Source of the DNA: Neelides folsomi
Taxonomy: Eukaryota; Arthropoda; Collembola; Neelipleona; Neelidae
Assembly: GCA_034687125.1 (NCBI GenBank)
Contig: JAQGBZ010000157.1
Location: forward strand, 62,001 to 126,000
Length of the DNA stretch: 64,000 bases
Reading direction: 5' to 3'
Position numbers and translations under genes: made by a program. The notes beneath the pieces are model-generated. The model had not been told where the DNA came from and searched no databases. It saw only the letters and a program-made list of their open reading frames with translations. Positions 3,952-56,902 of the stretch are shown here, piece after piece. Position 1 is the stretch's first letter. Each line of letters begins with the position of its first letter.

Positions 3952-5203
3952 TTACAACTTTGATTTAAGCAGAATTTCGTTCCCATTTTGATCTGGAGGG
4001 ACAAAATTAACCAAATTAATTTCATTTTCAAAATCCTTCCATGTTTTTCCAATAACACTCGGAGCATCCGGTTGGATTGATGGATGAGATTGGCGAACAA
4101 AATCAAGATTTGAAAGATTTGAGTAAATGTTAGCTATCGTTGGATAATTTGAAATGTCCACTTCGTATCTTTCAGTGTTTCCAACTTGAGGAACCAGAAA
4201 GCAATCTGCCATTGTTAGCTCATTTCCCACACAATATCTTCCATTTGTTGAGCTTTCGCATAAAATTTTCTCCAAAGCTGTTGATAAATTATCATTCATT
4301 TAAACTTATGATTCCTATGATATGTGATATGGTTCCTACTAAAGATCAACAAATGAAATTACCAGATAATCCTTTTTTAATCCAAAATTGGGCCCAACGA
4401 AGACGCTCGTTACTCACCCGGCTGTGCATAAGCACCACGCTGAAATTTTGAAGTGGTTGAATTCCTGATCCTATAACTTCACATATTTCTCTAACCTAAA
4501 TCATAATATTTATCCATTTTAAACAATAAATACATAGATCTTATACTTTGTAAATAGAAGTATAATATAATAAATAGAAGTTGTGAAAATAATTAAAAGT
4601 AATACTTTTGATCTTAAATGAACGTCTTTGGGCAAAAGTGGATATTCAGGAAAAATTTCTTCAATGAGCTCAAGTATGGCTGACTTTAAAATAGAAATAA
4701 TGTAAGAAAATATTTTATCCCTAAATTTTTAGATTTAAAGTTATTTATTAAATTATTTACAGATTGTGTTATCATTTTCCCCTTTAAATATAAAGCTGGA
4801 ACTTGTCCCATAGGGTTGATCTCAAGATATTTTCTTGCATACTTGAAATATTTAATTTAGTTTATAGAGAATTGTTTTAATAATTAACAAAATATGTAAT
4901 GATTTGATGCGCTATATATTTTTTCATTAGGTTAGGTGTACCTTACTCGGGAGATTGTGTTTATATTTTACCTGTTCACGCTCAAACAATTTGATACTGT
5001 TTGTTTCATATCTGATTTTTTTATATGCTAAAGCTGGAAAGAAATCAATCTTGAAGTTATTTTTTCACAATTTATGGTATATAATGTTTGTAAATATGGC
5101 CAAAATATATTTTACCGATTCTGACTCTCCATGCACAAGAACTTCTATAGCTTGTAAATAATAAAGGAGTTGGCGTTTTTTGATTTGCTTTTATTTCAAT
5201 CAT
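3952..5203 (-). CDS. GSTZ1: Maleylacetoacetate isomerase / glutathione S-transferase zeta, 6 exons, 255 aa
   Basis: Exons on the minus strand: 5203-5116, 5033-4972, 4841-4761, 4683-4606, 4495-4363, 4277-3952. The glutathione-activating zeta signature appears as RSSCAWRVRI (Ser21, Ser22, Cys23). It is followed by the thioredoxin-fold segment YLEINPMGQVPAL and the helical domain motifs SGIQPLQN and MADCFLVPQV. The enzyme converts maleylacetoacetate to fumarylacetoacetate in tyrosine catabolism, using glutathione in the cytosol. The start is the ATG giving MIEIKANQ, about 13 residues before the conserved strand. The protein is about 40 residues longer than usual because of a polar C-terminal tail after the usual HPSIQPDAP end. 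A GT inside exon 5 (near 4417) could mimic a donor, but reading through restores the conserved RLRWAQFWI helix. Confidence 0.9.
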
Positions 5204-7165: not shown

Positions 7166-7981
7166 GATGAATTTTTTAATCCCTTGTTTTTATTTTTATA
7201 GGAATGCTTTTAAGCACACGTTGTGTAGAATGATTTGACAAGCGAGTAGATTTGAGTTGAATGTTTTAGTAGAATGAATCTTAATATACAAATTTCATAT
7301 ACTAAATGAGTAAATGAAGTTTGAATCTGTGAATTTGTGGTTGTCTGCTGATGGAGCTCTCTGTCGCATCAAAATCTATTAAAGTTCATTCATACTTAAA
7401 ATACATTTTGAACCACACATGACCATGTGTTAAATTTGATGCTTCATTTACATACTAAAAGACCATTAACTACTAATATTTAATATATAGTACAGCTATC
7501 AGTTTAGAGTTCTATCAGAGTATTCAACTTGAACGTTGTTATTTGTTATCGTTTATCGCTAACTTGGTCTTACTATTAGTCTGATATTAATGATGTACTT
7601 TATGTAATATACATATTTATGAGAAACATCAAGAGTTTAAAGAATTTGAACTTTATTGGTGTCATATCAATTGAATGGTTATAAATGAGATAAGGTACTT
7701 CGGTTTCTTATTGATATTTACAATATAATATTACCTATACTGCAATATACAGTACATACATAAAGATAATCATATCAGTAAGATATTCCCATATAATATG
7801 CATATAAATGTACAAACAAGAATGAAAAATATTATAAAAAAGTAGTATTTAGAATAAGAAAAAATCATGTCTACTTAATAGTAAAATGGTGAACCTGGTA
7901 TACTTCTTTGGTATCTACCATACTTAAAGGCTAAGGGTTCAAGTCATAATGAGGGTTTAAATCTATTAATTTTTAACATAA

Positions 7982-11993: not shown

Positions 11994-14797
11994 ATGTATT
12001 CCTCTTTCTTGTTTTTACTATTCCTTTGTTTTCACTATTTTTTTATTTTAAGATTGAAGCTGAGGTTGAATCTCAATACAATAATTGTAAGTACAAAACC
12101 TAGATATCATTAATTAGTAATTACAACCACAATAGCATTACAGATTAAATAATTATTCTTCCCATACATTAGATTTTATAGAAGAATCGGAACATTTAAA
12201 TATTGGATATCTTTTAAATACGCCAAAATGCAAGATTCTCAATATAAGCGCTTATGATGTCCAGATAAGGTCATTCTTGAAAACGGGTTTGAAATTGCCA
12301 ATTTGTCCTTCAAAGAAATGGACTTACAAACACAATTCCGTAAGTTAATAAATATCTCATTATAATTATAAATAACGTGTATTCTAAAATTCATTAATAA
12401 GATTGAATATCATTTTTATAGTATTTAATACTCAATAATACTGCAATTGTCGAATCGGGATATTCACCGAGTTCATTATATTGTTGTTTTAATACAATAA
12501 CGCGTGCCGAACAATCTCCAAAATCTTACACAAGAGATGCTGATAGAATGTTCAAGTAAGGACCATTCTAATTTTAATATGCTATAAAGTATTATCTAAA
12601 TTAATTAAATATTAACAATAGGCCAATTTAATTTAATACTCACTTTATATTTTAGATGGCTATTAATTATGGGTTTTAAAATATATTGATTTTATTTTAA
12701 TTTCATAGTGTCAACAAAACTTGCATCCAGATAAACGAAGTTACTGAAATGGTTGATGAGTTTATTCAAGTAACTTGTATTTCAAAGCACTGGCCTTACT
12801 TTTTAAATGTTGTATACAAAGATTACCACGCGTTCGCTATTCCCCAACAAAGTTCCAAAACGGACAACAAAATTGAGCATTGGAAAAACCATTCAATTGA
12901 AAAACCCCCAAATATATTCATGTTTGGAATTGATTCCATATCGAGGCTCAATTCTATAAGAACCTTTCCAAAAATTCGAAATTTTTTAAATAGCATTGGA
13001 GCTTATGAAATGATTGGATATACAAAAGGTATAATTTATACTTTCCATCTTAATATTTATTTTGCAGACATTATAAAATTCTAAAATATTCATTTTGTTT
13101 GTGTTGATAAATTATTAATTTCATGTAATTAATTTTATTTAATCTTTAGTTGGGGATAATACATTTCCAAATTCAGTTGCCTTTCACACTGGATATAGCG
13201 AAGAAGAACTAGAAGAAATTTGTTACAAAAGATATGAAAAGCAAGATTTTTGTCCGTATATTTGGAAAAAGCGAGTTTCTTTTTAAAATCAAAACAATTA
13301 ATACTTTTATTAATAAGGCGTTAATTTTTGGTTCATAATAAGTATAAATGAATTAAATTGTCCTAAAATTGTAACAGATTTGATGTATCAAATTATTTCA
13401 CTTCATTGGCTGAAGACGTTCCCTTTCTGAATGGATTTAATTATATGAAAACGGGATTTGTTGAAAAACCAGTAGATTTTTATCTTCGGCCAATTATGTT
13501 AAAAGCCCATAATAGTAAAACGACGGTGATTGACAATATAATCTTCATTTACTATATTTATTTTATTGCCAATATAATTTTAATCATAAATCATGATTGA
13601 AATTTTTACTTGACAGGGCTTCTTTCTTAATTGTATAGGCGATCAATTAAATGAAGAATTTTTGATGAGCTATATCGAAAACATCATGAACGTTTCCTCA
13701 ATTCATAACGTCCCTTTCTTCATTTATTCATGGTTTACCAAATTAGCTCATGAAGATCAAAACGAAGCCCAATCTTTTGCCGATCTTATAGAGAGCTTTC
13801 TTAGAAGGATCGATCTCTCAAATACAATTTTATTTTTCATGAGTGATCATGGAAGAAGGTAAATAATTTATATCAGAGTAGATTTAACCCTAAGTATCAA
13901 TTTAACACACTAGGATATTTATTTATTACAAGATATTTTTCCATATACAGAGCATTCCCTATTAGTACCTAACTATCTTTAATGCGCATCTAACTTTTTG
14001 CTATTACTTTCTGGTTCAGATTTTGGAATTTAAGTAAATTAAATTTAGGTATGGTCAATTCCGTAATACAAATCCTGGGTGGTTTGAGGATAAGCTTCCA
14101 ATGCAATGGGTTTACATTCCTCCGTCCATATCAAGAAAGCATAAGGACTGGAAAGAGAATCTCATTATGAACTCCAAGTAATTATCAAATGTTTGAGTGA
14201 AGGGTATTTTGAAGAATATTATTCAAGATGTTGTTTTACAGGCGGCTCACGTCACCGTATGACATTTTCCAAACACTCGCTCATGTCCTCGAGACGGAAT
14301 TGAAATTGAGAGTTGAAGATTCCATGAGGATGAATGGAACCATTCTGCAAAGGAAACACGGAGTGTCTCTATTTAAAGAAGTGCCACTGGAAAGAACGTG
14401 TCAAGATGCAGGGATTCCAAGTTCCTATTGTGCCTGTTCCGCCCCTACAAAGCTTTCACTTACTGATTTAAATCTTCAAGCTGCAGCTGAATCTGCCATT
14501 AAGAAAATCAACTCAATCCTTCCGCTCCAATGTTCCAATTTAACTCTTTCTCAAATACATTCTGGAGCTTTGCTCAAAACCACGTACAACGGGCAAGAAA
14601 TATCAACTTACATTGTTGGGTTTGAGACCAAACCGGGAATTTTTGTATTTGAGGCAAGCGTTGAACTGGTCAATCAAAATAATGAACAAATTGAATTTAA
14701 GACTGCAACTTTACCTAATCGAAATAATAAGATAAACACTGATACAAGTTGTACAAAAGATAATCGTGCGGAATTGTATTGCTTTTGTTTATCTTAA
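11994..14797 (+). CDS. DUF229 alkaline-phosphatase-superfamily type II membrane protein, 9 exons, 637 aa
   Basis: Exons: 11994-12090, 12173-12339, 12422-12555, 12709-13028, 13150-13270, 13378-13525, 13617-13858, 14049-14177, 14242-14797. A short cytosolic start leads into a membrane anchor (FLFLLFLCFHYFFIL), so the protein is probably type II with a large lumenal or extracellular domain. DUF229 motifs are in order: FGIDSISRLN (Asp208, Ser209), GDNTFPN, DFCPYIW, AEDVPF, NCIGDQLN, MSDHGRR (406-408, metal ligands), EDKLPM and SPYDIF. A cysteine-rich segment ends the fold. The family is sulfatase/phosphatase-like, but the reaction is unknown. The intron after exon 5 needs a GC donor (GCGAGT); the nearby GT donor would put a stop in the next exon. 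A related gene lies at 19.1-21.6 kb. Confidence 0.88.
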
Positions 14798-19093: not shown

Positions 19094-21648
19094 TTAATTA
19101 CAAAAACAAATTTTTTTCAGTACAACATCTTTGGAGTCCGCTACGCATTTTGATTCTTGCGAATATTGACTTGTTCGAATTACCTCCCCAAACTTCCAAA
19201 TATTATTTTCCTTTGTTATCAACATATCAAAATGTCCCGTTCCTGGTATAGTTCTGAATGCCACTTGATACTTTTCTGATAATAATAATTGGCCCTTTTG
19301 TTCTTCTTTTAAAGCGGATGTATAATTGTGATATATCCTTTGAATGCTCACGATTTCTTTAACCTTTAAACTCGCACATTTGTTTAGACTATTTTTGATC
19401 AATAGATTCATTTCACCCACAAGCAAAAAAATCCCCTTCTTTGCATCATCACTACCAATTGGAAATGATATTTTAGAATTACAAAAACAAAACTCGTCCG
19501 GAATTCCACATGATTGACAATTCCTATCTTCCGGTATTGGAAGAAAAAGACTTATTCCTCTATTTGTTAATTCATTGGTTCGCGTCAAAAGATTTTCATC
19601 GGTTATTTTGCGCAAATCCAAGAAATCCTTTAAAGTTTCATGTAAATCGAAGTGAGTTGTTAGACGCCTTGTATTGTTTTTAAGGGTGTCGATCGCAAGA
19701 GGATATTTCTCTTTGAACTCATCGGGAAAGATGAAATACATAAAAGGCATCCGATCTTCCAAACTCCCTTGGGTGGTTTCTCTTAAAGGCCCCGTTCGAA
19801 TTCCATGGTCGCTCATTAGAAGGAAAATTGTTGTATTGAAATGGCCTTTGGCTTTCATCCATTCTAGAGTTTCCCGAAGAGCATTGTCACCCAGAAGGGA
19901 TCTTTCAAGATTGTCATGAAAGAGGGAATTGACCCAATTATAACCAAAATATCTCCTCGATTTTCCCATAAAATTGGCTATGAGCTTCAAGTTGTCAAGT
20001 ATAGATTGATATGCAAGTTTGGCCCCATGACAGAGATGTGAATTGTTGGGATGATTATTTCCAATGAATAGGTCCATTTGTCGAAAAAATCCATTGCCTT
20101 GAATAGAAATTCATAATATACCTTAATATATTGTAGATAAAGATTAAAATTAAACCTGGGCTCAACACTGGTTGGGAAACAAAGGATCCTACCACCTAAT
20201 TGAGGATGCTCATGGTTTGCGCGATTATTTATTATTATTTACCATTTACGATAAGGTATTTTAATAAGATAGATATGACTTTAAATCCTACCGTAATCAA
20301 CGGGTGATTTTCTAAATCCTTTTTTATCGAGTGTAAATAAGCCAATATCATTCCCATCTTCTGCATAACTCGTGTAAAATCCATTTTTCTTGAAATCGTC
20401 CCAAATAAATGTGCAATTATCAAAATAACCTTCATTTATCCAACAATCTTTTTTCAATTCATCTACATCCATACCGGTTAGCAAAGGCATCTGGATAAAA
20501 ATATTTATATGAATTAAAATAATATGAAATGCTTAACATATCTATTATCAATTTATTATTTGTGTCTTTTTTTGTGTCAACTTTAAAGATTATTAATATG
20601 TAAATATTATGTAATTCCATTCATTTTGATTACTATATTGGGAAATGTGTTTTCTCCATTTTTGGCCGCTCCATTCAACTCAATGGCATTCAATGTGTTT
20701 AAAAGATACTTGCGAGCTTTGGGTAACGCTCTGATAAATTGCATATGAGAAACTGCATCGAAACCCAATATAACAACATTATAATCACTAGAGACTTTTC
20801 TTTCACTGGCCGATTTCTTCATTTCTAATACCCGTTTTTCAATTTGTGGTTTGACGCGGATAAATCTGAATATGTCGTTTGAAACTTTGTTTTTGCTTCC
20901 TGGTAATGGACATTTTAAGAGAATCGTTTCGTAATTCTTCGGAATTAAAGTCACATTTGATTTAACATTTATGCATTCATCCTTAACTCTGAATAAAAAT
21001 TAAGGCTTAATACAGGTGCTTATGCTGCATAAGCACCTGTATTAAGCCTAGTGGTATAAGTTATGCACACATCGCTCTATCTATATTGTTTATATCATGA
21101 TTCATGAGTAACTTATAAATTAATATATTTTAAAATAAAGTTTAAATTTTTGAAACTTACATGTAATGGTTTTCGTAATTTCCATATTTGTAATCAGTCT
21201 CAGAACTCTTGTCGAGTAATTCTTGGTAGCAACATTCTCTGCTGTTATATTTGGAGTTTTGGGGAATTGAAATTATTGAAGAATCGAGATCAGATTCGAA
21301 TAATGATGTATATCTTAAAGAACATTTAATTTTTGGAGGAGGAAGAAGAAATTTTTTAATTGATTCTTCAAAAGGATCAAGTTGGGGAATAACACAGCCT
21401 TTATTGTTATTAATTAAACTTGTTTCAGAATCATTGTTTGTCCCATTTTGCGACAATGAACTGGTAATAAAAGCCTTTGGGCGTTCATAATAGGCCAACA
21501 AAGGTAAAGCGTTTATTACGATTATGATTAGAAAAATACCTAGCATAATTGAAATGACTTTTGGAATTTTCTTCCTTAATTTTAAAATTAAGTTAACAAT
21601 TTTCCTCTTCCTTGTCTTCAATGGCGATAACATTATAAACGGTTTCAA
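19094..21648 (-). CDS. Second DUF229 type II membrane protein, 4 exons, 681 aa
   Basis: Exons: 21648-21161, 20988-20634, 20490-20292, 20097-19094. A basic N-terminus precedes one long anchor (VISIMLGIFLIIIVINALPL), giving type II topology. The DUF229 core shows VVILGFDAVSHMQFIRALPK, NTFPNIMPLLTG, CTFIWDDF, SYAEDGND, MSDHGIRTG and DRMPFMYFIFP, then a cysteine-containing block RNCQSCGIPDEFC. It is a paralogue of the plus-strand gene at 12.0-14.8 kb but has far fewer introns and a longer stem, so the two are old duplicates or independent family members. The reaction is unknown; the fold belongs to metal-dependent phosphatases and sulfatases. The first intron (20989-21160) contains a striking 47-bp palindrome just before the acceptor. 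Confidence 0.88.
21003..21049. repeat. 47-bp near-perfect palindrome inside an intron
   Basis: Twenty-three-base arms, perfectly complementary, flank one central T at 21026. It sits in intron 1 of the second DUF229 gene, about a dozen bases upstream of that gene's 3' splice site. In RNA it would form a strong hairpin. No target-site duplication or internal sequence is present. Confidence 0.9.
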
Positions 21649-23203: not shown

Positions 23204-23336
23204 AACAAAGTTAGCTATTAGATGATAAAGTTAATGGACCGTTATAAAAATCTAGCTAGAATTTTCTCCTCGACGAATGAAAGAATTTTACTTTAATAAA
23301 TACTATATGGGACCTTTTGGGAAAAAACGGGGTCCA

Positions 23337-23776
23337 AGTATTTATTAATTTAAGTTTCTAAAGAATTCGAGATTTTAATTTATTTGATCTTCAGTAAAAA
23401 TAAACGATACATCACGTATTTCAACAAATTGGGGCAATTTACTACATTGACTATTATAACGTTAAAACATGATATCTTTGTTTATCAACCGTTACGTTTT
23501 GAGAATAATTTTGAAGAGACCTTTATGAATTTTATCATTTCCACTATTCTTTTTTCAATTCACTCTTCCAAGTTAAAAGAATTAAACATCTTCCGAATAT
23601 AATTTTCTCAAAACGACAGCTCAACAAATCGGATTGGGTAGATTATTCAGCATTTCAAAAAAGTTCAATTCAACTTTACAAAAAATTTGATGAATTCCTC
23701 ATGTAACTATAATTTTAATTGAAGTTCAAATAAGTTAAAATTCATAATTCTCTAGAAACTTACATTAATAAATACT
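23337..23776. mobile_element. Nested fold-back element, about 440 bp
   Basis: The ends AGTATTTATTAAT and ATTAATAAATACT are inverted copies, and the similarity continues inward (AAGTTTCTAAAGAATT against AAGTTTCTAGAGAATT). An inner pair around 23.49 and 23.60 kb (CGTTTTGAGAA and TTCTCAAAACG) shows that most of its length is palindromic. It splits the left arm of the surrounding element at a point where the right arm is continuous, so it inserted later. No coding frame of interest was found inside. Confidence 0.75.
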
Positions 23777-23986
23777 ATACTCCTCACACTCTAAGTTCCA
23801 AGAAAATTGAATCCCCCTCATGAAAGGGTTGTTTCGGAGGGCTGGATTTGGCGCACATTGAAATAACCGTACTATTTGCTTCAATGTTGCGTATTGCCTA
23901 TTACAATTATTTTAATATACATAGAACTTATAAAATATTTTATTTGGCGTTAATCCAACAAAACGGATTATAAATATTTATCGGAT

Positions 23987-24130
23987 CTAATCACTGTCGG
24001 ACCAATTTTTTTCCTCACTCGAATTTTCTTCGTCTATATCTCCAATTTGGATAACAACACGATCAATTTCTTTTAAGAATAGCTTGAAATTCTCAAAATT
24101 CATGGCGTCGTGGTAATCTGCTTTACCAGT
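23987..24130 (-). pseudogene. Remnant of a Tc1/IS630-like transposase
   Basis: The minus strand encodes GKADYHDAMNFENF, matching the transposase block usually written nYHdxMnxexF. It runs straight into an acidic tail with IDEENSSEEKNWSDSD and a stop. The catalytic DDE core that should lie between these parts is missing, so an internal deletion has joined the ends. It identifies the family of the surrounding long-inverted-repeat element. Confidence 0.55.
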
Positions 24131-24573
24131 TAGATTTAAATATGTTAATATTTGGAATAAAACTAGGTTTAATAACTTAAGAGTTTATGAATTAAGAATA
24201 GACTTAATTAATGCTAGATTATTAATTCAAATTCTTCCCGGTTTTAATACGCTTTATTAAACGCCAAATGAAATATTTAAAAAAATTCTATGTATATTAA
24301 AATAATAGTACGAGGCAATATGCAACATTGAAGCAAATAGTACGGTTATTTCAAGTTGTGCCAAATCCAGCCCTCCGAAACAACCCTTTTAAGAGGGGGA
24401 TTCAATTTACTTGGAACTTAGAGTGTGCGGAGTATAGGACCCCGTTTTTTCCCAACAGGTCCCATATGTAAAGTACATAATAGAACTCCTCGATAGAATT
24501 AAATTAAAATGAACGAATTGAAAAATATAATATGATGATGGTTTATGTTTATTTATATTTTAGTTTCATTTAT

Positions 24574-27500
24574 TCAATTTTTAGTTTTTGTGATTTTTCT
24601 TATTTCCTTATCGTAGTACGCAACGGCCGCGTCTCCTTTCCTGCAAATGATCTCAGCCCTTCTGAATCTGGCAAATCTGTCTTCTAGGACGTTGTTAACG
24701 TAGGTGAGATCATATATTTTGAGCATCCAATCATAAAGGCCTGCGAAAGGAGTGAATTAATCAGGGTGAGTAATAATTAATTAGATATTACGGGCAGCGG
24801 GTGGAAAGGCTCGCTCGAGTTTCTCCCGGTCAAAGTCTGGATGGGGAAGAATGTGTTCAACGAACTCCGCCACATTCTCCGGCTCAATACTTCCGGGCCT
24901 CGTCATTTCTCTCAAAGCCACGACAAAGTTTCCACCGAGGAGCCTGGAATTCCCTTCATAACTCCATTATTCATTCTCACAGTTTCTTACCTCCGGGAAT
25001 GAGCCCAAAAGTCCACATGGAGAACTTCTTTCGTCACTCGGTCGTACTTCACAATCGGATCAATCCCCTGTCAACAAAACATTCATACTTTATCTCTCAT
25101 TTGCATCTACGATCTCAATCTCTACCATTCTTCCCATTAATTCTCGAATCAAATATTAAAACCACGGGGCAATATACTTTTCCTTTTTATGTAAATATTT
25201 AACAATTAATCATATTAAACAAGTACACATATAAAGCTTGTAACATTAATTAAACAATTAATAATTGATAAATAAAACATCATCAACTTGTAATTATATA
25301 AATTACAAGTACATTAATTTAATCGGAGAGATTTTCATTCATTCGAGAATAATAACTTAACTTTACATGATGTAACTTCGTGTTTTATTAACATCGTACA
25401 CAGAGAAGAAAATAATAAGTACATTGCATACAAACACAAAGGTTCAGTAAACTCTGGATATTTTAGATTTATTTTAATATATCGATAGTTCAAAATTCAT
25501 GATTTTGATGGATAAGGTTTTTGAAGATATTACGAGTGCCGTGAGTGTTTTAAGGTAATAAAACACATTTTAAAATAAGGTTGTAAATTTAATGAGAATA
25601 GGTAATAATAAGGTTGGTATTAAAAATCACCTTAAGGATGCAGAGACCTTCCATTAAAATCCTTACGGGACTTGGGGGATTGTTCCTAATGGATTTCATT
25701 CTCGTAATGACCTCATAAGGAAGAACGGCTTGGTCCAAAGACGCATCTTGCATGGCTTTCACTTCTATGTATTCATGTTCAGCTCGTCGTTTTAAAAAGT
25801 AAGCTTCGTCTTTCAACCTCTCTGCCTCTTGTTTTTCATCCAAGAGTGCAAATAATTTCATTTTATCCTCATCGCTCAAATCCAGAGTTGCATGTAATTT
25901 GGAATATGGAGCCAAACGGCGATCGTTTTTGAAATCAAAGGTTTTCCATGTTGAAGACAACGCCGCCTTGTTGCGAAAAACATCCGACACCTTACGAGAA
26001 TTCTTTTGTCCAGATTGTTGTTGTTGAGATCCGCCATTATTTCCTTCAATGTTATTTGCTCCATTTGATGCAGAGGAAGAATTTGAATTTTCTTTGTTAT
26101 TTTCTTCCGAATCAAATGATCCAGAGTTTCCTTCATTCTTTTTTGTATCGGTTTCCCCTTTAGACTGCCCTTGGAAGGATTTTGATAATTTTGAAATACC
26201 CAATGGGTTAAGGAGAGATCCACCATGTCCATCTCCACCCTCCGAAACAACTCCATTTTTAATGTCTTCTTCTGCCCTTAAACTTGCTAATGTTCGTCTT
26301 TGGTGAAAATGAAAGTTTTTGAAGGAGTTATAATTAATTCTTTCATTTTAAGCAAACATTATTAAAAAATTAAAAACTTTACCTCAATGCTGATGATTCT
26401 CTAGATTTATTCTTCCAATGGGTTGTTCTTCTTTTGAGAATGGCTAGATTTATGAAATTTTTCGGCCACAAGTTGAGTTGACTAATAAAACAATGATTTT
26501 TAATAATGTATACCTTCTTGAATAGAACATGATTTGAAAATTAAAGATTTGAAAATTCTTATTTGCGCATAGTGTATGAATTTTAGTACATGCTTAAAAA
26601 TATGAAAAATTTAATGATAGGTTAATTTGATATTGCTTATTATTTAATTAAATATATAAGAACTAATAGTCTTACGCTAGTTTCTTTTTAACCCAATTCT
26701 TAATTGATGATTTAATCTTGATAATATTGAAGAAGCTGAATGTTGATCGAGGAGGACCATTGCTAATTACTCCTTTATTTTTATCATTTTTTCTTTGGGA
26801 TTTTCTTTGTGGTTGATTTTTATTTCCAGCCGCGACACTTGGACCTCCTGCTCTCTCAGGATTATTTATCGATTCGTCTTTTCTATGGTTTGAATCAAAT
26901 GATAACATAAACAGATCAAAAAGCACCATACCATATTACATTATACCTATACTGTGTAATTGGAATAGTATAGGGTCTTCAATTTATAACGTTACCCACG
27001 TAAATGATTCTACTGGTAAAAACTATCGTAGTATCGGTTGTATACTGATTTACTATATTATGTATATGTTTAGACATATAATATTACATATAGTAAATAT
27101 GCATGTATGGCAGATAGTTGAAATATGGAGATGTGACTTACTTTGCTTTCCAATCTTTCATCGTTCTTTTCAACCGAAGGATCTTGAATACGTCAAGTGT
27201 GGACTCTGCTGACTTCTGCTTTTGAAGTTTTTTGCTAATATAAAAAATTTAATTAAATGCGTTTTCAACTTTGTCCTTTCTCAAAGTATGTTTACATATT
27301 AAACATTTTTCTTTATATACCATATATTGACATATAATTAGTTTTTTATGGTTTTTATAGTAAATGACTGCTATTATATAGTAAAGTAATAAAAGTCATT
27401 TATAGAATGGAATATGTACTCTATATAAGCCATTTAAACATTCGTGTACCTTCCTCTGTTCTTGACCCATCCTTTAATTGATTTCTTTAAATAAATAACT

Positions 27501-28164
27501 TTGAACAAATCAGTCATTCCTCCATCATCTCTTATTTGGAACTTCATTCGACTTAAAGTTTGATTTAAAGAAATTACTTCCTCGGTATCATTTTTGAAAA
27601 TTGCATAAAATTTAACTCAATTCAATTTTTAGTGTAAAATACAGATATTATTGTAAAATCATGATATAACAATTTTCATTATAGGTAATTTTTGAACCAA
27701 ACTTACTATTTTTTCAACCATCCAAAAACACTTCTATTGAATCGAATGACACGAAATATGTCCATAGGTTTTTTGCCACTAAATTGAAAGAAGTACTATA
27801 TGTAGTTTATCAATAAATGACTTTTTAAAGACTTGTAAACATGACAAGAAAGTTCATAGATCTTTACCCATTTCCTTTTGTGTTTGCTCTCCATGCTTTA
27901 AAAATACTTTTCGCTTTGGGAAGAGCTTGAAATATTTTGGATATAATGTTGAATTTCCTATTTTAATGAAAACTTTAAGATATTTCATTTGTATTTTTTA
28001 AATTTTAAATAGATGTTTTTTATAATTGAAATTAACTTCTTATAATCATTGTTTGATATTAAATTCTAATACCTGAAATCAATTCTTTTAAGAAAAATTA
28101 AAGCTCTCACTCCACGTGATAATTTAACATTAGAAGCTGAAGCGTTTAAACTTGTATTTGACAT
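24574..28164 (-). CDS. Free-standing dynein heavy-chain stalk/microtubule-binding domain protein with exon-encoded basic repeats, 11 exons, 605 aa
   Basis: Exons: 28164-28073, 27957-27868, 27778-27707, 27551-27450, 27234-27142, 26882-26676, 26481-26383, 26297-25631, 25067-24991, 24943-24792, 24740-24574. Exons 2 to 7 are all multiples of three with phase-2 borders; each carries an 18-residue basic unit such as DIFRVIRFNRSVFGWLKK, DLFKVIYLKKSIKGWVKN or DVFKILRLKRTMKDWKAK. Exon 8 adds a Ser/Asn/Gln-rich linker, a charged coiled coil (about 392-440) and NPPSPVRILMEGLCILK. Exons 9 to 11 give DFWAHSRRLLGG, ILPHPDF and LYDWMLKIYDL. These match, in order, coiled coil 1, the microtubule-binding domain and the start of coiled coil 2 of axonemal dynein heavy chains. 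No AAA+ motor is present. An in-frame TAA lies just upstream of the ATG, and ATAAA signals follow the stop. Function unknown; microtubule binding is inferred. The exon 4 acceptor (TTTAAG) is the weakest junction. Confidence 0.78.
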
Positions 28165-29324: not shown

Positions 29325-30147
29325 TTAATTTTTTGGCGATATTTTTGTTGAAGGAGGAAGCACATTGTCTCTTATGGTTTTCTTATCCATTACATTCCCA
29401 GGTGGATCATAAATGGCGAGGATGACAGTGTATTTATTTTTCTTGTCATAACTGACTCCAAATCCAAGATTCTCCGAGGACTTCCAGACAAGTTGAGTGA
29501 AATGGCCATTTTTCCCGTTGATTTCTGGATTCTTCCAATTGTAGTCTTTTATTTCGTCGTACCACGCCGCGGCCGCTCGTTTCATTGTTGCACCATCAGG
29601 TTCAGAGCTTCCATACGAACCATAAAGATTTTCTCCATACTTTTCACACATGTGCTCAAATCTGTTATTGGCAGCCAAATAGTCGGAACATTTTTGAGCA
29701 ATTTTGTTCAACTGTTTAATTTTCATTAAATTAGTCAATCATTAAAAAGATAATTTTAAATTGTTTTGTTTATATCAATTTAACCTTTTCGTCAAGTTTA
29801 AGTGGAGGTGTTTTATGTCTTGATCTATATGAATTATGTTCAGCAAGACCAATTGACTTGATATCTGATAGGGAAATAAAAATAATAAATTTGTACATGA
29901 TACAATAATAAAATATTTTCAAAATACAAAGCAGTATATCTTTAAATGTACCGTGTATATTTTGCCATTATGTTAATAAATAAATTGCAAAAGAGAATAT
30001 TAGATTAGAGTATTTTGAGAAATTCAAAGAGATGAAATTTTAACCTTCATTTGCTTTGTATAAAGTAATGTTCGACATTGTTGTTTTTGCCGACACTTGA
30101 ATCAAGCCAAGAAGTAACAAAAGAAAGAGTTTAATTGAGAAGTCCAT
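29325..30147 (-). CDS. GAPR-1-like CAP (CRISP/antigen 5/PR-1) secreted protein, 3 exons, 189 aa
   Basis: Exons: 30147-30045, 29864-29785, 29711-29325. The signal peptide is MDFSIKLFLLLLLGLIQVSA. The CAP domain shows LAEHNSYRSRHKTPPL (helix with the conserved His), YGENLYGS, AAAAWYDEIKDYNW, GHFTQLVWKSSENLGFG (CAP1 motif with His and the Glu equivalent) and AIYDPPGNVM ending in DNVLPP. This ending is typical of the GLIPR2/GAPR-1 branch, but here with a secretion signal. CAP proteins bind sterols or lipids and act in venoms, reproduction or host interaction; the role here is unknown. A methionine 49 codons upstream is in frame but would bury the signal peptide, so I chose 30147. Confidence 0.88.
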
Positions 30148-39223: not shown

Positions 39224-39900
39224 TATTGAGCTATCAAGTGAGTAAGATGATTAAATTGTCAGAATCAAGTTTTTGATGATTGTATCAAAAATTTTGGAAT
39301 TCATTTTGGACAATTCCTTTTATTTATTCATATTGTTTTTAAGTTGAATTGAAACAAATACAAAGTTGGTCATTGTAACGTCAATCATAATCAATTGGGT
39401 CAATTTGACGCAAAAGATGAAGAATGTAATTTCCAAATTCCTCTTCATTCTTTAAAGAGATAAGTAAAACATTCAATAAATCTGCTAGTGGTATTCAAAA
39501 TATGCAACTATCAAAATGAATTCTAATAGTACTACTAATATTTCGTCAAAGTAGATTTGAAGATAAATGATCATGTAATTGTTAATTAAATATAGCTAAG
39601 CTAATTCAATATGAGCAACTACTACTAATACATTCATTATACTAGATATGCCATACTTAATAATCTACAACTATAGTATAGTATCGCCAACGTACATATT
39701 TTATATTTCAACTCTAAATCTAAATCATTCTCTAAAGATTCAATAGAGAAGGCAACATTTCCAATATGTCCAATAATAAGTTCACAACAATGAGTAAGAA
39801 AAAAATTAAGATTCAAATCCCCAGTTTAAATTAAAGTTAAATATTGAGTTAATGTTTTAATTTTGCTAATAATCATTTAGGGACAAAAAAGTTTATAAAA
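39224..39900. other. Intergenic region between divergent genes
   Basis: It separates the crystallin-CAP gene (minus) from the SAXO-like gene (plus) and presumably holds both promoters. No clear core elements were found. Confidence 0.45.
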
Positions 39901-40989
39901 ATGATGGGCCATTATAAAGTAAGGAGGAGCAACACTTGCTACAATCTTCATTACACAAAAGAATGTTGCAAGCCTTCGTTTGGAGCTCAAAGAACAAAGA
40001 TGATTGCTCCTTGTGATCAAATTCTCATCCCAAAAGTCCGAATGGAAGGATTGTCATCTTACAGATCCCAATATGACTCAAAAGCCCCTTCACGAACTCG
40101 CCCCTTCAAACCTGTCCATAATTTCGGACTGCCACTTGTAAACTCGCCGTGTTGCGAGAGGAGTTCAAGCTACAAAGCTCAATTTGTACCGAAAAAACCC
40201 CAACCGATCAAATCTGCCAAACCAGTTTGCTGCTACTTTCCCCGGGAATGTAAAACATTTTGTGGAACGTCAACGTACAAAACGGATTTTGATGAAAAGA
40301 GAGGCTCACGGTTTTATCCTTATAGACCAAAGGATAACATTAAAATACCATTTAATCGCTTTCATAATCGTACAACTTATAAACAAGATTTTCCTCAGAA
40401 ATCTGTCAATCAAGTTCATCCATACGCTCCACAGAAATGCTTTGCTCTTGTCAACATCCCCATGAAACACAATATGTCATTATATCAAGTAACAATTTTC
40501 TATATTAGTAATTAATATGTATTTATATTTATTATTCAATGAACTTTTTTATTAAGTTTTTTAATTTATTCATTTACAGCAAGACTATCAAGAAAAAAAG
40601 TTACCTGTCAAATTAAAGCGAAGAAAGCAAAGACCATTTTCACTTCCGTTTCGCTTCGCAGATCTCACAACTTACAGATGCTCCTATCAACAGTTCAATT
40701 TTGATGAAGAGCCCTACATTTGGAGAACTTCTAAAAAGAAACCCACTTGCAGTAATTTTACATTTAAGCTTATTCAAACTAACTTTAAGATAAAAACTAT
40801 TGTTCAAATGCTTTTAAATAAATTAATATTATTAATAAATATTTAGATGCACTTCATGCTCATTTCTTCTGTTGTGGGGATCCTCCTCAGGGTTCTTTTA
40901 ACCACAGTACAATGCCTCCTCCATGCTGCATAGAAATGCCATCAATCGTTCCTGAAATCTTTGACATGTCACTTGGCCAATGCGAGTAA
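39901..40989 (+). CDS. SAXO/FAM154-like stabiliser of axonemal microtubules, 3 exons, 300 aa
   Basis: Exons: 39901-40488, 40580-40751, 40847-40989. The protein carries at least five Mn-type repeats of the SAXO family: LSSYRSQYDSK (about 52), SSYKAQFVPKK (89), STYKTDFDEK (124), TTYKQDFPQK (158) and TTYRCSYQQF (226), each followed about 10 residues later by a proline-aromatic turn. The N-terminus is cysteine-rich (CYNLHYTKECC), as in SAXO proteins. This family lines the lumen of doublet microtubules in cilia and sperm flagella. A cysteine-rich tail (HFFCCGDPPQG, PPPCCIEMP) is not typical. Two ATGs are adjacent at the start; either may be used. Confidence 0.75.
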
Positions 40990-50106: not shown

Positions 50107-53100
50107 TCAAAGATTTATTCTGTTATCCCTTGCCCATTTCTTAATGACCATCAGAATTTTCTCCGCGTTTCCTCGTGAAGAGTTTCGTAAGAGTGCGATA
50201 ATATCCGGTAATGACTCTCTGTTACAAGTAAAAGATTCCCACATTAGCCAAGCTTTTTCAGTAAGTTTTAGCTACACAAATCAAATAATAAATCACATTG
50301 ATTAGAATTTAATTTAAACAAATTAGAATAATTGGAAATAATACTTTGGTTCGTGTCCTGCAATGATGAGTTGAAAGACTCCAACACAAGCTCCTCGTTT
50401 CCCCTCCCAATGTTCTTGTGATGGGTCGAATCTTTCAAGGAGGTCAAAGGCCTTCGCTGCGTAATAAAACTGTCCCATTTTGTAGCACTCATTTGCAATT
50501 AGCTGGAAATTGGACAACAAATAATTAGAAACAAGACAAATGATTCCCATAATTGGTTCATGAAATTGTAATATAGTATATTCTGGATAAAAAATGTATT
50601 ACTCTATGTTCTTACACGCTAACGAGTAATGTACTTATATTAAAACATTATAATAGTAATAGTTGTACTTGTAAAAGTTGGAACGATTCCGGACTTGTTT
50701 CCATTCTGTCAAACAAATCCCATGCTAAACGTGGTTTCTTGTTCATTATATCTTTTAAAAAATTAACAGAAAAGTTAATTTAATAACAGTTTTACATTAA
50801 ATCAATTTAACCATTAAGATTTAGTGGTATGAATAAGGATGTATTTTATTATTACAGCATCTTGCGATACACTGAATAAAAGTGAAATCAGTTCTTAATT
50901 TTTCGCTTTGAATCATATTAAACAATTCCTCGGCTTCTTGAAATTGATTCAGCATGGTTTTTGCCTTAAAGAATCATTTGATTGAACATTCATTAAATGA
51001 AAATTCATATTTTTTAAAAAAAAGTCTTATTGATTTAAATTCTTCAAATAAATCAATAGGTTTAGACAAGTTATTAAAATCATCGATTTAATTATGTTTA
51101 AAACTACCTGTGCATAATTAAAATTGAACGTGTCATCACTGTAATAATGCGTCCTCACAGAATTGAGGTACAGAGCACAATGGTCAAAGTTTGAATTGAG
51201 GAAATGGGCAGAGGCCATACAAAGCCGCCCAAAGACCGAGTCCTGCTCTGACTCACTCGACCCAATCCGATTAAAGAAGTTCTGAGCTTTGACCAAATAC
51301 TCTCTCTGCTTAACAATACAAACACGAATTTTCATTTATCTCTCAAATGAGATTGGGTTGATCAGAGGAATTTTAATCTTTCCACTCACGCTACTCGCAC
51401 TCCCAGCTGTATGAGAAAAAAGAACGTTCACGATGGCATACACGATGAATTCCGGTATTGTTTTCGGTTTAATTTCCTTCATGAGGGCCGAGGCATTTCC
51501 AACATCATCCTGTTCATTATTTTAGGATTAAAAATTACAAATTACATCATCCTTTGATTATGTTAAACATGAAATATCCATTTAATCAATCCTGATGGAC
51601 TTGTCTCATGAATGTCATGAAATTACAATGTGGAGGTAATAGATGATCAAGTTGAGCCGAGCTTCTGGAATGAGATCAATAAGCTTCGGGAGGACTTGAA
51701 GAGCTCCTTCGCCATTCCGAAATACAACCAAATTGTGGCGAATGAGGTCAAATGCGTTGGAGAAGTTCCCAGTCTTGTGATGTTCTTCCTGGTTCTATCA
51801 GTAATGAAACAAATCACGTGGGGGAATCCTCGTAATTTTTAAATGTGACTTAAGCCCATAATTTAGTTGACTAATCGTAATTAAAAGAACTATAAAAGGA
51901 CTTAAGGGTCATTTCAAAACCAATAAACCAAGGAAGAGAAAGCGATTTTATACTTTTTGAACCATAATTTAATTTACAAGCAAGACATTTGTAATTGAAT
52001 TTTTGCTAAATAAGGATGAAATTTATTAGTTTAAGGGGAAATACATTTTTGCGTCGGTATAATGTAAACGTATAAGTAGTGTGGTTTAAGAAAGTTCCAA
52101 ACTTGCAATTCTGTCATTTTTACTATCATGTAATATAAAAAGAAATATGTATATTAAGATTTACCAAAAAATTAATGATGGGCTTTAAATCCTTTTCGGC
52201 TGATGATCCCGAGTAAAGCCGAAAGGAATTGCAAGCTCGGAGATTCAATGCAATAGCTGAGTCAGGAAAGGCTTGAAGATAAACGGAAAGAACTTCTTGG
52301 GAAACATCATAATACTCGAGACGGTGATAACAAAGAGCAACGTAGACATTCAAGGCCAAATATTCTCTATTCATATTAAAAATATTAGTCATACATCATA
52401 TCAGTAAATTATTTGGGATTTTCATTTGGGATTAAATTCATAAAATTCATAAAAGTGCATTTGAAAAAGTACAAATTATTAAGTAGAGCTTTCAAGAACA
52501 TTGAGCCAGTGGTTGGGTCAGGGAAAAATCTCATGCATAAATCTATGTGATAAGGATTAAGCGAAGCAAGATCATACGAGTGCTCTGGAAAGTATCTAAT
52601 TATCAAAGCATAAATAAGCGATCATTATTTTTTAAATTTTATTAATTAAGAGTTATTGGATTTTATAATATAAAAGGTCATTTAGTTTAAAATTGAGGTA
52701 TTATTGTAACTTTGTACCTGTTATCTAAAAGAATTCTTTTGTAAATGTCAATAGCACTCTGGTAATCATTTCTTAAATAGTGGATGCTCGCAAGTGAGAG
52801 TTGATTTTCAAGAGTATCGTCCAAATTCCGGTGTATTTCGATCAAAGCGTCTTCGTCGTTCAATTTATGAGCGAGGTGAAAGAGAAGCCGAGTTTTCAAA
52901 TTTGTCTTTTTCCCTTTTTCGGCCGCTGAAGCGGATTCCTTAAAGAGACCAAGACTGAAGAGACAACAAGCAATGTTAAGATACAAATCTCCCTTGTCGC
53001 TCTTCTCCCTTTTCAAAAGGCTCTCATATTCTTCTAATGCCTTTCGGAAATCGCACAAGTGGAAGGAGCAATAGCCAACTCCTCCTGGACACTTTACCTC

Positions 53101-53544
53101 TTTCACGCTCCTTTGAAACTAGAGAATTAAAGGATTTGTTCCAAATTAGGTCTTTTTGACATTTTTTGTAATTCGAACAATACAACATTGAATCGAGCTA
53201 AAATTAATTTGATTTGATTTGATCCTGATATTAATAACATAGACTTTGTGATAAAATGTTTCTTAAACCTCAAGAAGTGTCAGAGCTCCAACAAAGTCTC
53301 TTTTTCCCAAAAAATCATGAACGTCTGGAAATTGATTTTGACTGTTTGATCTTGGTAAAGTTCCTGAGAAATTATTCTGTGGTCGATTTGAAGGTCTTGA
53401 GAGCAACTATGAATCATTTTTAGCATTTCATCAAAAATGAAATTATTCCATATGGGTGCATGCGTGTAAAAAGTAAAAACGAAAGAAAAAGTATAATTTA
53501 TCTCATTTAATAATTTATGGGTTTTAAAAAAAGAATCTTACCAT
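50107..53544 (-). CDS. TTC26: IFT56 / TTC26, intraflagellar transport complex B subunit, 11 exons, 563 aa
   Basis: Exons: 53544-53542 (ATG only), 53406-53269, 53118-52718, 52366-52165, 51794-51627, 51509-51390, 51305-51108, 50964-50856, 50751-50669, 50502-50345, 50218-50107. TPR-repeat blocks match animal IFT56 throughout: [129 protein letters not shown] and [12 protein letters not shown], ending KKWARDNRI. Length is close to the human 554. IFT56 helps IFT-B carry motility-related cargo into cilia. The initiator codon stands alone in its exon, and the next exon starts directly with LLSRP, as in human MMLSRAKP. A possible acceptor at 50273 was rejected because it breaks the frame. Confidence 0.94.
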
Positions 53545-54873: not shown

Positions 54874-56902
54874 TCAACATAATCCAGCCGTTTCTTCTGC
54901 CAATATCAACGCTTCTTTTCCAACGTCATCAAGAAGAGTCTTAAGCTGAACTTCTGACATGCAGGCTGAATCTGTGACTCCACAAAGTCGAAGTCCATCT
55001 TTATATCCTGCAGCCGAAATGCTTAATCCTAAAAGTAATTAAATCATGAAAATTTTAATTATGAAATACCAACGCTCTTAACGTTTACTTAACTCTTAAC
55101 ATTTTAGTCAAAGATCATAGAAAATAGTAAAGACTTAGTTAGACTTAAACTGTAATTGTATGCAATTTATGCATTATATGACTAATTTGATAAGACCTTA
55201 ATGCTACTTATAAATTTCATATAAATTTAATTCTTTAATTAAAATTCTATCTGGATGAAACTGAAATGAAAGTGAAGAGAAATTAAAAATTAAGGAATTC
55301 ATACCTGCCACAGTGAGAAGTGGAACCCAAGCTCCTCCGTCAGCCACGGCATCTCCCCACAAGTAAAAGGTTTCAGAGGCTCCTGGTAAGTTACTGAAGA
55401 TCAAAGAAGTCCCGCAACTTTGCATCATGAACGTTTGCATCTTAGCGGGGAACATTCCAAAGAATTTGAACAAGTAAAAGTTCCATAGCGGCTCGGGGCT
55501 CCTGGCCAAAGCCAACCCAGTTTCATGAGAGAGGTTGAGTCGTGCCAATGGAGATAATTTCCCAGTCGGGACCATAAAGTTCACGATTGTGAACCTGTTC
55601 TGGAGGAAGAAATTCGGGTAAGGGAGAATGGCCGCCACAGCACCAATCCCCATCGTATCGCCCAAACCCTTCTGCCCTTTTTTCAAAGGATACTTCACAT
55701 CGAATTTCCTCAAAGCTCCGCCTAAAAGGCTTGCCAATATTGTTGGTATACAAGTCCCAGTCTTCTTTTTAATATCTTTGATGATATTCAAGTCTAACAT
55801 TTGCGACCATACGAAATGTTTTTTTCCTGAATAATTCATTGTCACGAATCTGTTTCGAATGAACGTCGCTTCCCACGTTGCTCTCAAAGCAGTTGTGGCT
55901 CCAAAAACAAAGGCGTTGATATAATACAAAATTTTCTTCCAGAGAGGAACGTAAATGCCTTTGAGGGGATTGACTGCATAGGGGATTTCTCCTCCAGCCA
56001 TGCAATAACTATAAAGGAGAATCCAAGACCCAGCGTCTCCATAAGAGTGATGAAATCTGAAAGAACATTTTTGAAACATTTAACCAAAAATTTAAAATTC
56101 AACCCCGAACAAAAAAACTACCAATTGAATTGTGATAAATTAATCAATAATAAAAGTTAAATAAAATTTTATGAACAGCTTTTAGGTAGATGATTAATTA
56201 ATTAATATTTTATTAATTTTAGACATATTAAATTAATAATTAAATTCTTAGTTTTTACCTGAGAATTCTACAACTTTTCTCTGTCCCATCAATGAGACTC
56301 TCAGTCATGTCATATTTAAATCTCGGAATAATGATTTCTTGCCACTGAGGATGTTCCTCGCTCATGTCCTGAATCAATTCACCAAGCATGTTGAGCATTT
56401 CAGACTCATTAACAACTTTGTCCTCCGGGAGAACCACGACGTGATTTGCAATGTCAAAGGCTTCATCATCTTTCCAAGCATAATAGCCATAAGCCTTCGT
56501 GAAAATTTTTTTAAGTTTCAAATAAGGATTCGTCCCATCTGGTGCAGTGAAATTGACAACATGTGAGAGGAATTTCTCTCTGTATTTGAACCCGTCGATT
56601 CGATTTTGGTAAATGGCAATAAAAAGAACATTTCGCGAATTTCCACCACTGGGCGTTTTATACCCCCAAATATTGTCCAGTCCATGAGAAGACAAGCGAA
56701 TGGAATTGGATCCCTTGGCTTTCAAAATTATGTAAATAACACCTCTTATACTTTGATTGATCAAATAGAGAAGAATTAGAGAAGGAATGACAATGAAGAG
56801 GGTCAGAGCGAGGGAAATAATTCCTTCGATAATATGTAAGAGGAAAAGTGCGAATGCAATTAACACTTGCATTTTACACAGCACGAAGGTGAATTCTCTC
56901 AC
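54874..56902 (-). CDS. Wax-ester synthase / diacylglycerol O-acyltransferase-like membrane protein (WSD family), 3 exons, 516 aa
   Basis: Exons: 56902-56259, 56056-55305, 55028-54874. Two hydrophobic segments near the N-terminus (residues about 11-60) would anchor the protein in a membrane. The acyltransferase motif HHxxxDG appears as HHSYGDA (His217, His218, Asp222). The C-terminal WSD half shows GDTMGIGAVAAILPYP, NLSHETGLALARSPEP, SLIFSNLPGASETFYLWG, WVPLLTVAGLSISAAGYKDG and RLCGVTDSACMSEVQLKTLL, the usual pattern of this family. Such enzymes join acyl-CoA to long-chain alcohols or diacylglycerol. The last motif residue Gly is Ala, so activity is likely but unproven. Wax ester storage would fit a marine crustacean, which is inference. 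Confidence 0.82.

Follow-up and report, generated by a model that had tools for sequence, protein, structure and literature searches.

A predicted family of motor-less dynein stalk genes in the genome of the collembolan Neelides folsomi

Dynein stalks are familiar as components of giant motors. Our analysis strongly supports the view that, in the genome of Neelides folsomi, a dynein stalk and its microtubule-binding domain are encoded as a motor-less gene of their own. The gene lies in the window, by which we mean the whole 64-kb stretch of contig C157 that was analyzed. An earlier note on this DNA had recognized the stalk; beyond it, we find that exons 2 to 7 of the gene are a repeat array, and that the gene is one of seven whose origin is a flap-type inner-arm dynein. 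We are highly confident of this anatomy and origin, that is, of descent from the distal stalk of a DNAH3/DNAH7/DNAH12-type dynein. The stalk itself is a known module.

Gene structure and genomic neighborhood

Rebuilt from the sequence, the window stalk gene runs from 28164 to 24574 on the minus strand and comprises 11 exons and 10 GT-AG introns. The coding sequence is 1818 nt long (605 codons and a stop), every junction is phase-consistent, an in-frame TAA precedes the ATG at 28164, and an AATAAA overlaps the stop codon. The rebuilt model bears out the earlier note, which had described an ATG of its own after an in-frame stop, 11 in-phase exons, a stop after 605 codons, and a poly(A)-like signal at the gene end. 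For exon 4, 11 AG candidates were compared as acceptors, and 27551 was chosen because with it the frame stays open into the W repeat. GC content per codon position is 0.43/0.38/0.35, against 0.34 and 0.29 in the 2-kb bins across the gene. The parts of the gene are as follows.

Exon 1, 28073..28164, minus strand: start ATG; repeat-like degenerate end VRALIFLKRIDFR
Exon 2, 27868..27957, minus strand: divergent W repeat IFQALPKAKSIFKAW; phase-2 introns on both sides
Exon 3, 27707..27778, minus strand: W repeat IFRVIRFNRSVFGW; phase 2-2
Exon 4, 27450..27551, minus strand: W repeat LFKVIYLKKSIKGW; phase 2-2
Exon 5, 27142..27234, minus strand: W repeat VFKILRLKRTMKDW; phase 2-2
Exon 6, 26676..26882, minus strand: low-complexity stretch and W repeat FFNIIKIKSSIKNW; phase 2-2
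Exon 7, 26383..26481, minus strand: W repeat FINLAILKRRTTHW; phase 2-2
Exon 8, 25631..26297, minus strand: low-complexity linker, coiled coil 1 (residues ~391-455), helix 1 of the microtubule-binding domain
Exon 8, 3' boundary: phase-0 intron, also in the DNAH7-like dynein of C399
Exon 9, 24991..25067, minus strand: microtubule-binding domain, flap segment
Exon 10, 24792..24943, minus strand: later helices of the microtubule-binding domain
Exon 10, 3' boundary: phase-1 intron, also in C399 and in each of the seven stand-alone genes
Exon 11, 24574..24740, minus strand: coiled coil 2 from LYDW; stop codon, with AATAAA over the stop

Several other features of the window were recorded. Just downstream of the stalk gene are two nested pairs of inverted repeats, the inner arms at 23775-23929 and 24283-24437 (155 nt, 92%) and the outer arms at 23305-23335 and 24437-24467 (31 nt, 97%); in sequence, the resulting element (23305-24467) looks like a non-autonomous transposon. 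Right upstream of the gene lies a CAP (cysteine-rich secretory) frame (29325-29738, minus strand). Farther away are two DUF229 frames on opposite strands (14213-14794, plus, 5e-22; 19097-20110, minus, 2.9e-61), a SAXO1-2 frame above the Pfam cut-off (39853-40512, plus, 1.2e-7; stabilizer of axonemal microtubules), a TPR frame that matches the ciliary gene for intraflagellar transport protein 56, IFT56 (52690-53118, minus, 2.7e-27), and a WS/DGAT C-terminal frame (55207-56079, minus). The SAXO1/2-like frame and the IFT56 exon fit a ciliated animal, though in animals the neighborhood of a gene is weak evidence. Elsewhere in the assembly, contig C742 (L044, L045; 15,157 bases, 69% A+T, code 5, COX1 by Pfam) is mitochondrial, and its frames read as ND2-COX1-COX2-ATP6-COX3-ND3 and ND6-CYTB-ND1, which we take to be the arthropod gene order.

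Identity of the stalk

The last 235 residues of the protein, encoded by exons 8 to 11, match dynein heavy chains in order (phmmer against the PDB, best E value 1.9e-13). The match spans residues 22 to 209 of this piece, running from coiled coil 1 through the microtubule-binding domain into the start of coiled coil 2. DNAH3, DNAH7, and DNAH12 head the PDB rows; another label appears on one row, which reads "putative malate dehydrogenase 1B" and is a 4069-residue chain that aligns as dynein. A paralogous stalk from contig C360, searched separately, reached 6.1e-14 to DNAH12, and a profile built from all seven stand-alone stalks reached 2.1e-26 to the same protein; this profile recovered 56 chains at E ≤ 0.01, nearly all labeled as dynein and none of which we read as another protein. 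When the window stalk is aligned with DNAH7, DNAH12, and the genome's own cytoplasmic dynein, a flap is present between helices 2 and 3, and across the stand-alone stalks the flap segment is as long in the alignment as that of DNAH7.

The stalk is nonetheless divergent, being 15 to 31% identical to the nine dynein rows of our alignment. All nine of those rows match the Pfam stalk family MT (PF12777), whereas Pfam assigned no family to the 235-residue window piece and none of the seven stand-alone stalks reached the MT cut-off; the only one to match MT at all, on C486, scored 23.4 bits against a cut-off of 24. The earlier note had read the last four exons as the stretch from coiled coil 1 through the microtubule-binding domain to the start of coiled coil 2 in axonemal dynein heavy chains and had proposed a profile search as the test of that identity. 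The search agrees with the assignment: the PDB yields a dynein match, with the Pfam MT cut-off left unreached.

Absence of the AAA+ motor

In real dynein, the AAA_8 and AAA_9 domains flank the stalk. Profile searches of the genome, in which the best candidates were scored, found AAA_8 and AAA_9 on seven contigs (C122, C44, C117, C399, C66, C500, and C453), all of which also carry stalk (MT) matches; neither domain matched any of 14 prokaryote controls. AAA_7 matched the same seven contigs and, weakly, C396, and this model gave matches in 12 of the 14 prokaryote controls, in one of them above the cut-off. The C396 matches (4315-4455 and 7294-7500, minus strand; 1.9e-5 and 9.1e-5) lie on a contig where neither AAA_8 nor AAA_9 nor the stalk gave a match, and they perhaps belong to another dynein-like AAA+ protein that is not a dynein. 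Among the best candidates scored, no match to AAA_7, AAA_8, or AAA_9 fell on the window contig C157 or on C95, C360, C724, C3, or C486, the contigs of the other stand-alone stalks.

We also compared the genome's own AAA+ frames with the 64-kb window and the six paralogue loci by tblastn and obtained no match. As a positive control, the same frames matched four of six dynein loci (L001, L002, L003, and L007, with one query for L002 coming from the same gene) and gave none at L004 and L008. A dynein heavy chain split by the assembly was rejected as an explanation, AAA_8 and AAA_9 having been located on seven other contigs.

With both searches empty, the earlier statement that no AAA+ module is present holds. 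The feature that defines the dynein class, an AAA+ ring in the same chain, is absent from the window gene, and because of this absence the predicted protein is not a dynein, though it carries a dynein stalk. From these sequence searches, we count seven true dynein genes and seven motor-less stalks in the genome. By best PDB matches, the dynein on C117 is DNAH17/9-like and that on C66 is DNAH2-like; the alignments mark C122 as a cytoplasmic dynein 1 and C399 as a dynein of the DNAH3/7/12 type.

A family of seven stalk genes

The genome searched for stalks spans 75.1 Mb in 840 contigs, and since each search scores the best candidates, distant members may escape. The window stalk as a query found six further loci, on C95, C360 (two genes, C360a and C360b), C724, C3, and C486. 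Two further queries with distant members recovered the same loci together with weak matches to the true dyneins on C399 and C122; a match on C89 was non-significant (E 0.59). The three stalk queries thus give at least seven stand-alone stalk genes on six contigs, and the six further loci rule out a chance match for the window gene. Decay of a single gene was likewise rejected, there being seven copies with open stalk frames.

For the paralogues, splice sites were chosen by script. The C360a model runs from ATG to stop over 535 aa. The C724 (254 aa) and C3 (262 aa) genes were modeled from an ATG as bare stalks without repeats, and the models on C95 (at least 529 aa), C486 (at least 536 aa), and C360b (at least 340 aa) have incompletely modeled N termini. 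All seven genes stop ~50 to 100 residues past the start of coiled coil 2. The six paralogous stalks are 24 to 41% identical to the window stalk, and 19 columns are invariant across all seven, 7 of them within an NPP...LKG stretch that we take, from its sequence, to be helix 1 of the microtubule-binding domain. The stalks show one-residue shifts before the NPP, and six of the seven carry an [FY]PPxA.LYDW signature in place of the S.A..L..W of dyneins.

On C360, the two genes (L038 and L039) occupy opposite strands, separated by ~6.5 kb, and do not pair with each other as closest relatives. In the C486 paralogue, a long exon of low complexity (L042:3132-4109, plus strand) contains repeated KDSLNSAN units and is perhaps a phosphorylated region.

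Origin from a flap-type dynein gene

A tree of 16 stalks places all seven stand-alone ones in a single clade (100/99), within which the window, C95, and C360a stalks cluster (99/96). The tree leaves the nearest dynein unseparated, with 10 of 13 inner branches open and long branches for C500, C122, and C3.

Introns were compared with those of the dyneins on C399, C122, C66, C500, C117, and C453. A phase-0 intron after helix 1 is present in C399 and in five of the seven stand-alone genes (window, C360a, C360b, C724, and C486). The site is contiguous in C95 and C3 and in the dyneins C122, C66, C500, and C117, and in C453 an intron lies a few codons downstream in a different phase. A phase-1 intron before coiled coil 2 is found in C399, in C117, and in all seven stand-alone genes and is missing from C122, C66, C453, and C500. 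Among the dyneins classified, namely C117, C66, C122, and C399, C399 is the one flap-type dynein of the genome.

These sequence comparisons support the common descent of the stand-alone stalks with a flap-type dynein gene. Since the stalks and C399 share introns in place and phase, they further indicate that the family consists of stalk exons copied from such a gene by DNA duplication and then multiplied to seven genes. Origin as a processed retrocopy was rejected, the introns having been retained.

The N-terminal repeat arrays

Each of exons 2 to 7 of the window gene carries one copy of a short repeat with the consensus hhKhhKhKKShKxW (h, hydrophobic), and the seven junctions from E1/E2 to E7/E8 are all phase 2. 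The same repeats occur in C95, with six phase-2 junctions, and in C360a, with four phase-2 junctions and a first exon that holds two repeats. The repeat pattern is found 5, 4, and 5 times in the N-terminal regions of the window, C95, and C360a genes, respectively, compared with shuffled means of 0.09, 0.07, and 0.18; none of 5000 shuffles of any region reached the observed number, which, the pattern having been derived from these same sequences, attests repetition and does not count as an independent discovery. In raw six-frame DNA of the paralogue loci, the pattern is non-specific, with 0, 2, 3, 3, 3, and 4 matches on opposite strands and 1 to 4 on the sense strand of L039 to L042. The N-terminal regions of the three genes are basic (K+R 0.23 to 0.29, D+E 0.05 to 0.09). 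Upstream of the C486 gene, short frames resemble the repeats by eye.

Pfam returned nothing for the N-terminal part beyond one match, at E 1.5, to a family whose function is unknown, and the PDB returned no profile match to the repeats at E ≤ 10 and, by sequence, one chance-level match (E 0.95). An amphipathic alpha-helical reading of the repeats was rejected: their mean hydrophobic moment at 100 degrees is 0.251, below the shuffled mean of 0.309, and peaks at 110 to 120 degrees, a period near 3. The centrin-binding repeats of SFI1, for which a passage of PMC9406199 gives the consensus AX7LLX3F/LX2WK/R, were considered as a known counterpart. Of 15 W repeats, 12 resemble them in being hydrophobic at positions -7 and -3, with W at 0 and a K/R among the three residues that follow, but position -8, the first L of LL, is hydrophobic in only 1 of the 15, and this identity was rejected.

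Relation to known systems

The nearest known proteins, DNAH3, DNAH7, and DNAH12, have in common with the stand-alone proteins coiled coil 1, a microtubule-binding domain with a flap, and the start of coiled coil 2, along with the two stalk introns of C399; they differ from them in possessing an AAA+ ring, linker, and tail, and in a length of about 4,000 residues versus 254 to 605 for the complete stand-alone models. The engineered SRS-MTBD fusions described in part of PMC6629372 likewise consist of a short stalk and microtubule-binding domain severed from the motor. Those constructs, however, are man-made and fixed in one registry by the fused synthetase, whereas here the cut stalk is genome-encoded, with a repeat array added in three members.

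A protein search with window residues 370 to 605 found nothing at E ≤ 0.001 among 1279 candidates scored, which were predicted frames without introns. A search with the seven-row stalk alignment gave 11 matches among the best 8000 candidates scored. Eight of these were read: six extend as far as the LGGEK..RW region that belongs to a full dynein, one (P0010) is a coiled-coil-1 piece, and one (P0011) is a 127-residue frame that decides neither way. For the remaining three, the table gives an additional AAA domain from Pfam. No stand-alone relative outside the Neelides folsomi genome thus appeared among these intron-less predicted frames, which is not evidence of absence. Judged by titles and the starts of abstracts, full-text searches of the open PubMed Central library turned up no paper on a motor-less dynein stalk gene; PMC2674883 states that the dynein heavy chain genes of arthropods had gone unclassified.

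Possible functions

We lean toward a reading in which the proteins are non-motor microtubule binders, derived from a stalk of the DNAH3/7/12 type, that serve as passive tethers or cross-linkers; the tether role taken by itself we regard as an even call. The earlier note had offered a microtubule tether and a competitor of real dynein as roles, and both are plausible. Like engineered stalk constructs, the coiled-coil hairpin may fold alone and turn its microtubule-binding domain and flap toward the lattice. Lacking an AAA+ ring, it would undergo no ATP-driven registry change, so that binding would be passive and the protein, on its sequence, a putative ATP-independent microtubule binder. In dynein, according to the part of PMC6629372 that treats these contacts, helices 1, 3, and 6 touch tubulin, helix 1 shifts into the tubulin cleft on binding, and the flap of DNAH7 touches the adjacent protofilament, for which the authors propose microtubule flattening. 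The W-repeat array could bind a second partner, either another microtubule or an adaptor, and stalk and array together would tether or cross-link microtubules, probably in the axoneme. It is the position of the basic array, at the opposite end from the stalk, that suggests a tether or cross-linker; because C724 and C3 were modeled without repeats, such tethering would not be the role of every member.

Natural competition is an unlikely but serious alternative: a free stalk would fill dynein sites on microtubules and tune or block the dyneins without linking anything. In flap type, the stalk matches the full dynein on C399, and two members were modeled as bare stalks, as a competitor might be, yet the repeat array kept in three genes would be superfluous for a mere competitor, and a lone, ring-less microtubule-binding domain may bind weakly. 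Somewhat less probable still are static dynein arms, in which the seven motor-less flap-type stalks would take on the passive role of single-headed inner arms that were lost and would hold the neighboring doublet without ATP, with the W-repeat array anchoring some of them; the single flap-type full dynein among the dyneins classified is the setting for this idea. We also doubt, to a slightly greater degree, that the stalk hairpin has given up microtubule binding and become a coiled-coil adaptor or structural piece. The divergence of the window stalk from dynein and the failure of all seven stalks to reach the Pfam cut-off would suit such a scaffold, but the most conserved stretch of the family is NPP...LKG, the putative helix 1, and helix 1 is among the helices that contact tubulin in dynein.

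Far less probable is that the genes are decaying fragments of a duplicated dynein gene. The inverted-repeat element adjoining the window gene does place mobile DNA nearby; the stalk frames, however, are open and spliceable at seven loci and keep their invariant columns despite deep divergence, repeat arrays are retained in three genes, and coiled coil 2 ends alike throughout. That the gene belongs to a full dynein with AAA+ exons in another place, through misassembly or trans-splicing, can be dismissed almost entirely, given its own ATG after an in-frame stop and its own stop codon, the stalk matches that the seven AAA_8/AAA_9 contigs bear themselves, and the failure of the genome's AAA+ frames to match either the window or the six paralogue loci.

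Significance

The Pfam stalk model misses all seven of these stalks at its cut-off, so relatives may go unnoticed in other genomes. The seven stalks would offer natural, small, ATP-free microtubule-binding domains with a flap for structural work, and the role of flap and stalk without force generation would become directly testable. If a natural family of motor-less stalks is real, a microtubule-binding domain can leave its motor and evolve as an independent binder of the lattice, and the seven genes of Neelides folsomi point to microtubule-binding proteins of a new class, built out of one part of a motor.
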